Program-made: the position numbers and the translations under genes
The notes under the pieces: generated by a model
What the model was told of the DNA's origin: nothing
The model's input: the letters and a program-made list of their open reading frames with translations, nothing else
The model's database searches: none
NCBI GenBank assembly: GCA_022425945.1
Contig: JAKMEK010000046.1
Span: 1 to 64,000, forward strand
Direction of reading: 5' to 3'
Source: Flavobacteriaceae bacterium
GTDB lineage: Bacteria > Bacteroidota > Bacteroidia > Flavobacteriales > Flavobacteriaceae
Length of the DNA: 64,000 nt
Part shown: piece by piece, positions 53,021 through 56,631 of the stretch
How positions within the stretch are numbered: position 1 is the first letter of the stretch
Layout: each line of letters opens with the position of its first letter

Positions 53021-54802
53021 ATGAAAGCACTTTCTGACCAACTATCGCCAGTACTGACCTCTTTTTTAGCCGCTTCGCATGGAGTCGATGTCACCGACTT
53101 TGAATTTCAGCAAACACGCAAGGAATTTGATGGAGACATCACCTTAGTTGTTTTTTCCTTATTGCGTTCTATTAAGGCTAACCCTGTAGCTTTAGGGGGG
53201 GAGATTGGCGCTCATTTAGTTGATCAAGTAGCATGGGTAACTGATTTTAATGTGGTCAAAGGATTCTTAAATGTATCGATTGCAGATGATTTCTACGTAG
53301 GACAGTTAAACACTATTGCTGCCTCAACAAACTATGGTCACTTAGCTGCGGATCCAGCCAAAGGAGTAGCCTTGGTGGAATATTCTTCTCCCAACACAAA
53401 TAAGCCACTGCATTTGGGGCATATTCGTAATAACCTCTTGGGGTATTCGGTTGCTAATATCATAGCGGCGAGTGGTCAAGAAGTTGTCAAGACGCAAATC
53501 ATCAACGACCGTGGAATACATATCTGTAAATCCATGGTGGCTTGGCAAAAATTTGGTGAAGGGACAACCCCTGCTTCAGAAGGAATCAAAGGGGATAAAT
53601 TTGTGGGGAACTACTATGTTCGCTTTGACCAAGAATACAAGAAAGAAATTGCGGTATTGGTTGCTAAGGGCAAGACTGAAGACGAAGCCAAGGCCAATGC
53701 GCCACTTTTTTTAGCTGCTCAAGCCATGTTGCGCGATTGGGAGGCTGGCGTCCCAGCTATAGTAGATTTATGGAAAACCATGAACGATTGGGTGTATTCA
53801 GGTTTTGATGTAACCTATGCCAATCTTGGCGTTAGCTTTGATTCTTTATACTATGAAAGTGAAACCTATCTTTTGGGTAAAACCCTGATTGAGGAGGGGC
53901 TTCAAAAAAATATTTTTTTTACCAAAAAGGACGGTTCAGTTTGGATTGATTTAACCGATGATGGCCTTGACGAAAAGCTCTTATTGCGTTCGGACGGCAC
54001 GGCTGTATACATGACCCAAGACTTAGGAACTGCTCTTCAACGTTTCAAGGACAATCCAAGTATGCAAGGAATGGTGTATACGGTTGGAAATGAACAAGAC
54101 TATCACTTTAAAGTGTTGTTCTTGGTGCTTCAAAAATTAGGTTTTTCCTGGGCCCATTCGCTCCACCATTTAAGTTATGGAATGGTTGACCTGCCACAAG
54201 GTAAAATGAAAAGTCGTGAAGGTACTGTGGTCGATGCTGATGATCTTATGGTAGAAATGAGTCAAACGGCTGCATCCATTGCAGAAGAACTCGGGAAATT
54301 AGAGGGCATGTCGGCAGAAGATAAAAAAGCCCTTTATCATACCATTGGTTTGGGCGCACTAAAATATTTTATTCTAAAAGTCGATCCAAAAAAGCGGATT
54401 TTATTTGATCCAGAGAGTTCGGTTGATTTCGCAGGTAACACGGGTCCTTTTATACAGTATACCTACGCGCGAATTCAATCCATTTTGCGTAAGGCTGAAC
54501 ATATAGAGTTGTCTGCAATTGTGCTTGATACCATAGAAGAAAAAGAAAAAGAGATCATCAAGCATCTGATGGACTATCCTGCTCTTATTCAGCAGGCTGC
54601 TGCTCAGCATAGTCCTGCTTTGGTGGCCAATTATAGTTATGACTTGGTGAAATTGTTCAATTCCTTTTATCAGAACATTAGTATACTGGGTGAGGAAGAC
54701 ACTAGCCGAAAAAACTTTAGAGTAGTATTGGCGCATCAAGTAGCCAAAATACTCAAACAAAGTACTGGTTTGTTAGGGATAGCAGTTCCTGAGCAAATGT
54801 AA
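53021..54802 (+). CDS. argS: Arginyl-tRNA synthetase
   Basis: VEYSSPNTNKPLHLGHIRNNLLG; GMVDLPQGKMKSREGTVVDADDL. Confidence 0.98.
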   Translation: MKALSDQLSPVLTSFLAASHGVDVTDFEFQQTRKEFDGDITLVVFSLLRSIKANPVALGGEIGAHLVDQVAWVTDFNVVKGFLNVSIADDFYVGQLNTIAASTNYGHLAADPAKGVALVEYSSPNTNKPLHLGHIRNNLLGYSVANIIAASGQEVVKTQIINDRGIHICKSMVAWQKFGEGTTPASEGIKGDKFVGNYYVRFDQEYKKEIAVLVAKGKTEDEAKANAPLFLAAQAMLRDWEAGVPAIVDLWKTMNDWVYSGFDVTYANLGVSFDSLYYESETYLLGKTLIEEGLQKNIFFTKKDGSVWIDLTDDGLDEKLLLRSDGTAVYMTQDLGTALQRFKDNPSMQGMVYTVGNEQDYHFKVLFLVLQKLGFSWAHSLHHLSYGMVDLPQGKMKSREGTVVDADDLMVEMSQTAASIAEELGKLEGMSAEDKKALYHTIGLGALKYFILKVDPKKRILFDPESSVDFAGNTGPFIQYTYARIQSILRKAEHIELSAIVLDTIEEKEKEIIKHLMDYPALIQQAAAQHSPALVANYSYDLVKLFNSFYQNISILGEEDTSRKNFRVVLAHQVAKILKQSTGLLGIAVPEQM

Positions 54803-54810
54803 GACATAAA

Positions 54811-54841
54811 AAAAACCGCTCAGAGAACGGTTTTTTTTTTC
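54811..54841. terminator. Bidirectional terminator between argS and proteorhodopsin
   Basis: AAAAACCG-ctcagagaa-CGGTTTTTTTTTT. Confidence 0.75.
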
Positions 54842-54877: not shown

Positions 54878-55615
54878 TTATTTAGACGATACAGCTAAGT
54901 TGTAAACGACTAAACCAAATCCAATTTTGTTGATGGCATCACCAATGTTATAAATAACATCTAATTGTAATGGAATTCCGAAGATTACGCCTTCGCCTCC
55001 GTACCATCCAGCAGTACCAGCCATGTACCCAATAGGATAGATTGCCCAACCGATCACAACAAACTTAACAAGTGTATTGTGAGCAGCTTCTACGGCTCCT
55101 CCTGAAGCAACAGCTAATTTCTTTGCTTCTCCTGCTGCAATATCATATACGATTGCAAAGTAAGCAAGACCAGAAATTAATCCCCAGATAGCAGGTTGTG
55201 CTCCTGAAGTGTATACTGCTTCTCCTAAATATCCAGTAACCAACATGATAACTGAAAGGCCAATCATGCGCCACATCAATTTTCTTGTTGCACCGGCGGC
55301 TCTAAGAATTAAGTAGAATTCAACACACATTAATGGTACTGTTAAAATCCAGTCCACATAGCGGAAGAATGTTGGTGAAGTTGCATTAGTTGCCCAATAG
55401 TCACGCATGTACCAATAGTGTACAGCAGCGATAAAGGTAATCAAACCAGAGATGAGGATTGATGTTCTCCACTTGTTGTCAAATGAACTCAACGATAGGA
55501 AGAAAAACGCCGATGCTGCCATCATTGCCATACAACCTACGAAGAAAGTGAACCCTACATAATCATCTGCTGCCATTGCAGGAACAGAAGATAATAAGCT
55601 TAAAAATTTTTCCAT
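54878..55615 (-). CDS. Proteorhodopsin-type microbial rhodopsin (predicted light-driven proton pump)
   Basis: Helix C FRYVDWILTVPLMCVEFYLIL (DTE triad D88/T92/E99); helix G DAINKIGFG with Schiff-base K230. Confidence 0.97.
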   Translation of the reverse strand: MEKFLSLLSSVPAMAADDYVGFTFFVGCMAMMAASAFFFLSLSSFDNKWRTSILISGLITFIAAVHYWYMRDYWATNATSPTFFRYVDWILTVPLMCVEFYLILRAAGATRKLMWRMIGLSVIMLVTGYLGEAVYTSGAQPAIWGLISGLAYFAIVYDIAAGEAKKLAVASGGAVEAAHNTLVKFVVIGWAIYPIGYMAGTAGWYGGEGVIFGIPLQLDVIYNIGDAINKIGFGLVVYNLAVSSK

Positions 55616-55716: not shown

Positions 55717-56631
55717 GTGATTTACGTCCTAAAAAAATATCAATTTCATATTTACTCGACATTTGTGTTCATCCTTTTGTCTTATTTGTTAAACCAAGCT
55801 ACACAAGCAATCGTGGCCGGTTTTATGATTTTCACCATTGGTTTAATTCACGGTGCGAATGACCTACAACTGATTCAAAAAAAAACCCAAAAAAAATCAA
55901 AAAAAACTTTTATTGAGTCACTCGTATTATACATTTTGGTTGTTTTGACTGGTGTTTTTTTGTTTTATATTCTTCCTGCCTATGGGTTAGTCTTCTTCGT
56001 TATTTTTAGTGCCTTTCATTTTGGGGAGCAACATTTGGAAAGTAAAGTGGAGGTTGCTAAATCATCTTTTTTCAAAGGGGCTCTATATATAAGTTATGGG
56101 TGTGCGCTCTTTGGATTGCTTTTTACCTTACAGTGGGAAAGTGTACATGCAGTGATTGCTCAAATATCTGGGCAATATATATCAAGGCAAAGTACAGAAC
56201 TGTTGTTCTTTATTGGACTCATTACTTTCCTTTTTTTGGGGCTGCTTTCTCGCGACTTACGAAAGTTGTTGTTTTTTGAAACTCTCGTACTCCTTTTATT
56301 GGGTTTTCTTTTTGTGAGAAGCACCCTGATTCTAGGTTTTGGCTTTTACTTTGTTGTTTGGCACAGTATACCATCGGTAAAAGATCAATTGAACTTTCTG
56401 TACCCCTCTGATCGAAATGGTGCATGGAAATACCTCCTAGCCTCATTGCCCTATTGGATCATCTCTGTTCTAGGCCTTGTAGGGGTCTATCTTTTTTTTG
56501 ACATTAAGTCCGCAGCCTTTTTACCATTGTTTTTCTCGTTCTTGGCCGCCATCACCTTCCCTCACACTGTGGTTATGGGTTGGTTGAAATTAAGTGAACA
56601 AAAAACCAATGGGTCCGCACAAGAATTCTAA
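55717..56631 (+). CDS. blh: Brp/Blh-family beta-carotene 15,15'-dioxygenase (GTG start)
   Basis: FTIGLIHGANDLQLI, FSAFHFGEQHLES, FVVWHSIPSVKDQ, TFPHTVVM; divergent neighbour of proteorhodopsin. Confidence 0.92.
   Translation: MIYVLKKYQFHIYSTFVFILLSYLLNQATQAIVAGFMIFTIGLIHGANDLQLIQKKTQKKSKKTFIESLVLYILVVLTGVFLFYILPAYGLVFFVIFSAFHFGEQHLESKVEVAKSSFFKGALYISYGCALFGLLFTLQWESVHAVIAQISGQYISRQSTELLFFIGLITFLFLGLLSRDLRKLLFFETLVLLLLGFLFVRSTLILGFGFYFVVWHSIPSVKDQLNFLYPSDRNGAWKYLLASLPYWIISVLGLVGVYLFFDIKSAAFLPLFFSFLAAITFPHTVVMGWLKLSEQKTNGSAQEF

Follow-up and report, generated by a model that had tools for sequence, protein, structure and literature searches.

A Bacteroidota proteorhodopsin with a glycine at the carotenoid fenestration position in a Flavobacteriaceae genome

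Does a flavobacterial proteorhodopsin with a small residue beside its retinal hold a carotenoid there? This question is raised by a stretch of 64,000 nucleotides from a Flavobacteriaceae bacterium (assembly GCA_022425945.1, contig JAKMEK010000046.1, positions 1 to 64,000; in the following the window), which encodes a proteorhodopsin of 245 amino acids on the minus strand (54878..55615). An initial annotation, made by reading the sequence, had pointed to Gly145 (55181..55183, minus strand; read as GGA from 55183 to 55181) as the residue that in other rhodopsins opens a fenestration for a carotenoid antenna. The presence of a glycine at this position is confirmed. At a probability of roughly 85% we regard the protein as a green proton pump in which the opening at Gly145 would hold a 3-hydroxylated carotenoid made by the cell itself, to the aid of the retinal. 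The pump is not exceptional within its group, for which carotenoid binding has already been reported in the literature.

The proteorhodopsin and its relatives

The translated open reading frame matches the Pfam family PF01036 with an E-value of 4.9e-38. In a phmmer search of the PDB the zeaxanthin-bound proton pump NM-R1 (9jou, and 9jov with a near-identical sequence) was found with E-values of about 1e-105 and green proteorhodopsin with 5e-52. The entry 9jou is the top PDB match in both sequence and fold, and an AlphaFold2 model of the protein, with a mean predicted local distance difference test score of 87.2, matches proteorhodopsin structures. The residues expected of a seven-helix microbial rhodopsin are present, namely the retinal lysine (K230), the proton-pump motif DTE (D88/T92/E99) and the histidine of helix B (H66), and all of them are invariant in the alignments of relatives. 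Met96 occupies the spectral-tuning position, and a methionine there is associated with green absorption. Judged by its sequence, the gene is that of a green-absorbing, outward proton-pumping proteorhodopsin of the NM-R1/KR1-like clade of Bacteroidota. In a search of genome contigs the only match of 100% identity came from a metagenome-assembled genome of the Flavobacteriaceae, and the next one (91%) from another such genome of the same family.

NM-R1 is 75.9% identical over 228 residues and shares with the window protein the DTE motif, the W-G pair at the fenestration and the helix-F residues Tyr, Met and Thr. It differs by a proline in place of Ala202, a tryptophan in place of Ala160, a D-E loop that is two residues shorter and a shorter F-G loop. 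The green proteorhodopsin (GPR) of SAR86 (8cqc, 7b03) belongs to the same proteorhodopsin branch and has the DTE motif as well, at 43.8% identity, but carries a phenylalanine at the fenestration, an alanine instead of the preceding tryptophan and a tyrosine at the position of Thr201. Kin4B8 and the xanthorhodopsin of Salinibacter agree with the window protein in the fenestration glycine, a tyrosine of helix F and the DTE motif; they are members of the xanthorhodopsin branch, however, and have other residues at the helix-F site. Identities to xanthorhodopsin (XR), Gloeobacter rhodopsin (GR) and Kin4B8 are all below 30%, which rules out that the protein belongs to the xanthorhodopsin family. By family the protein is a proteorhodopsin.

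The fenestration glycine

The window protein was aligned by MAFFT with the PDB sequences of GPR (8cqc), XR (3ddl), GR (6nwd), Kin4B8 (7ytb), the thermophilic rhodopsin 5azd and NM-R1 (9jov/9jou). Gly145 is placed opposite the phenylalanine of GPR and opposite the glycine of XR (G156), GR, Kin4B8 (G153), 5azd and NM-R1, all of which have the W-G pair; no bulky residue stands at this position of the window protein, and the preceding tryptophan is common to all aligned rhodopsins except GPR. Both the counterpart in GPR and the W-G context had been proposed from an alignment by eye on the AGE motif of helix E. This register is safe, because the 15 residues from Gly145 to AGE equal the distance from the phenylalanine to AGE in GPR and from the glycine to FGK, the counterpart of AGE, in NM-R1. 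The longer spacing between the GEA and AGE motifs was also seen correctly, with 27 residues here against 24 in GPR (25 in NM-R1); the additional residues are located in the D-E loop, which is variable among relatives.

Three sets of sequences were used to ask how widespread the glycine is. It is invariant in the 47 proteorhodopsins found in 201 genomes at the family level (47/47) and likewise in 81 further loci drawn from genome contigs and IMG/VR (81/81), which makes a chance occurrence untenable. Among 29 rhodopsins from a phylum-wide sample, 27 have the glycine, NDQ-type rhodopsins included, and a phenylalanine or tyrosine is found only in two divergent sequences, both without the DTE motif. 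Glycine is thus the rule and the SAR86 protein the outlier. In a survey of 2026 the diagnostic glycine was stated to occur in every Bacteroidota proteorhodopsin included (PMC13043013). As the published norm of the phylum's proteorhodopsins, the glycine is no special trait of the window gene; the common state looked unusual in the initial annotation because SAR86 GPR had been taken for comparison.

The predicted carotenoid pocket

What is known of the pocket comes from homologues. In Kin4B8 the replacement of the glycine by a bulkier residue abolishes zeaxanthin binding, Ser208 and Tyr209 lie near the hydroxylated ring of the carotenoid, and Tyr204 is conserved across the known carotenoid-binding rhodopsins (PMC12308411). 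The flavobacterial proteorhodopsin KR1 from Dokdonia eikasta has Tyr, Met, Thr and Asp as its pocket residues in TM6 and binds the 3-hydroxylated xanthophylls zeaxanthin and lutein much as Kin4B8 does; astaxanthin is a further ligand (PMC12308411).

Compared with these published residues, the window protein agrees with KR1 at three of the four positions, namely Y197 (55025..55027, minus strand; the equivalent of Kin4B8 Tyr204), M198 and T201. Thr201 and the following Ala202 (55010..55015, minus strand) correspond to Ser208/Tyr209 of Kin4B8 and to the Thr/Asp of KR1. Together with the high identity to NM-R1 and with Gly145, the Tyr/Met/Thr set places the protein among pumps of the NM-R1/KR1 type.

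From these homologues the following course can be proposed. Beta-carotene would be converted to retinal by the product of the divergently oriented blh gene, and at the position that a bulky residue fills in SAR86 GPR, Gly145 would leave a side opening beside the retinal ring. A 3-hydroxylated carotenoid of the cell's own making (zeaxanthin and/or myxol) may then run alongside helices E and F and place its hydroxylated ring in the opening, probably held by Tyr197 and Thr201, and might pass blue-green excitation to the retinal and/or speed the photocycle. The sequence, its alignment and conservation, the predicted fold and the biosynthetic genes come from the present analysis. Carotenoid binding, the need for the glycine and energy transfer are all carried over from the published homologues, and we infer that the window protein would bind its own carotenoid in vivo. 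The possible use of a xanthophyll antenna, as suggested in the initial annotation, is supported by the zeaxanthin-bound nearest structure, by KR1, by the helix-F residues and by the pathway genes described below.

The following points weigh against this explanation. Ala202 replaces the aspartate of KR1, by which one possible hydrogen bond is lost; the CrtZ-like hydroxylase of the same genome is matched by no Pfam or NCBIfam model; and the completeness of the genome is 85.67%. The loss of the aspartate is no strong objection, because the site varies among the 47 family members and the 81 further relatives, where Pro, Glu, Ala, Asp or still other residues occur, and is a proline in NM-R1, which was solved with zeaxanthin.

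Two further features of the protein deserve mention. Ala160 (55136-55138) stands where 44 of the 47 family relatives have a tryptophan, and the F-G loop contains three extra residues (208-210; 54986-54994) that are seen in only 10 of the 81 further relatives. With Ala202 and the longer F-G loop the small subgroup of this pump could differ from KR1 in its carotenoid preference, for example by favouring the monocyclic myxol or by tolerating 4-keto carotenoids, but we consider this very unlikely.

Carotenoid biosynthesis genes and the native ligand

The gene blh, encoding a beta-carotene 15,15'-dioxygenase for retinal synthesis, is the divergent neighbour of the rhodopsin gene (55717..56631, plus strand) and was assigned by TIGR03753 (172 bits, cut-off 95.25) and PF15461. 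The same divergent layout is found in 69 of the 70 relatives for which a blh gene was detected nearby. The carotenoid pathway genes of the genome were assigned by homology. A gene for a regulator with MerR and B12-binding domains is followed by crtB and then by the gene of the CrtZ-like hydroxylase, crtY adjoins a polyprenyl diphosphate synthase gene, and crtI is located near a crtA-like gene, crtD and cruF. With these genes the host appears to be equipped for carotenoid synthesis, and given the blh gene beside the pump a native ligand is plausible. The assignment as CrtZ-like is due to about 40% identity to Pantoea-type sterol-desaturase-family/beta-carotene hydroxylases in tblastn and to the pattern of histidine boxes. 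A search for hydroxylases with PF04116 did not recover the crtZ-like gene and matched two different genes of the sterol-desaturase family, and a search for ketolases with PF00487 gave two desaturase-family matches. The crtD match seemed to be interrupted by an in-frame stop, but this was dismissed, as the reading frame is open and the TGA is the stop codon of crtD itself.

The regulator encoded beside crtB (L004:2358-3281, minus strand, on contig C8 of the same genome) resembles CarH below the equivalog cut-off. A W-x9-EH pattern is conserved in it, as is an HELS stretch similar to the histidine motif for cobalamin binding, and therefore light may control carotenoid synthesis by way of B12.

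The native ligand could be myxol, with its single 3-hydroxylated ring and a psi end, instead of zeaxanthin, and we give this slightly less than even odds. The crtA-like gene, crtD and cruF beside crtI correspond to the myxol enzyme set of Nonlabens spongiae, and the pathway genes as a whole are the set that is reported to make myxol and zeaxanthin in this species (PMC11855829). However, Nonlabens species with such genes produce both carotenoids, in varying proportions (PMC11855829), and it is zeaxanthin that is found in the solved NM-R1 complex 9jou. Both carotenoids have a 3-hydroxylated ring (for myxol see PMC11855829), which is of the type that fits such openings. As the genes point to zeaxanthin and myxol alike, the window pump is a natural case for the question which carotenoid such pumps use.

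It is also conceivable, if rather unlikely, that the main effect of a carotenoid bound at the opening is a faster photocycle or a more stable protein, with energy transfer to the retinal being minor. A carotenoid bound by Kin4B8 can indeed transfer energy poorly (PMC12308411, PMC13093654), but for KR1, a protein of the same kind as the one studied here, energy transfer from 3-hydroxylated xanthophylls and from astaxanthin is reported (PMC12308411).

The glycine alone is no proof of antenna use, because it is invariant across the clade and occurs in NDQ-type rhodopsins too, yet with the pathway genes present and three of the four KR1 pocket residues kept it is improbable that Gly145 is just a legacy and that the pump of this organism carries no carotenoid. 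The window pump adds a well-placed but ordinary case to a recently recognised rule, by which the proteorhodopsins of Bacteroidota retain an opening for a hydroxylated carotenoid.

Additional observations

An intact Bacteroidota-type proteorhodopsin of 237 amino acids was found on the putative viral contig IMGVR_UViG_3300046323_000337 of IMG/VR (L177:6857-7570, the same locus as L147:3010-3723). It is 66% identical to the window protein and about 80% to flavobacterial relatives, and retains the W-G pair and the DTE motif. No blh gene is among the listed open reading frames, no match was obtained in 50,697 phage records, and the half of the contig that was examined contains no capsid or terminase gene. 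Its neighbours are genes for an RNA ligase, a homing endonuclease, a thymidylate synthase and a guanylate kinase. It would be unusual for a phage to carry a proton pump; the viral origin of the contig is putative.

Between argS (53021-54802) and the rhodopsin gene of the window an inverted repeat with flanking runs of A and T is located at 54812-54840. It looks like a bidirectional terminator shared by these two convergent genes.
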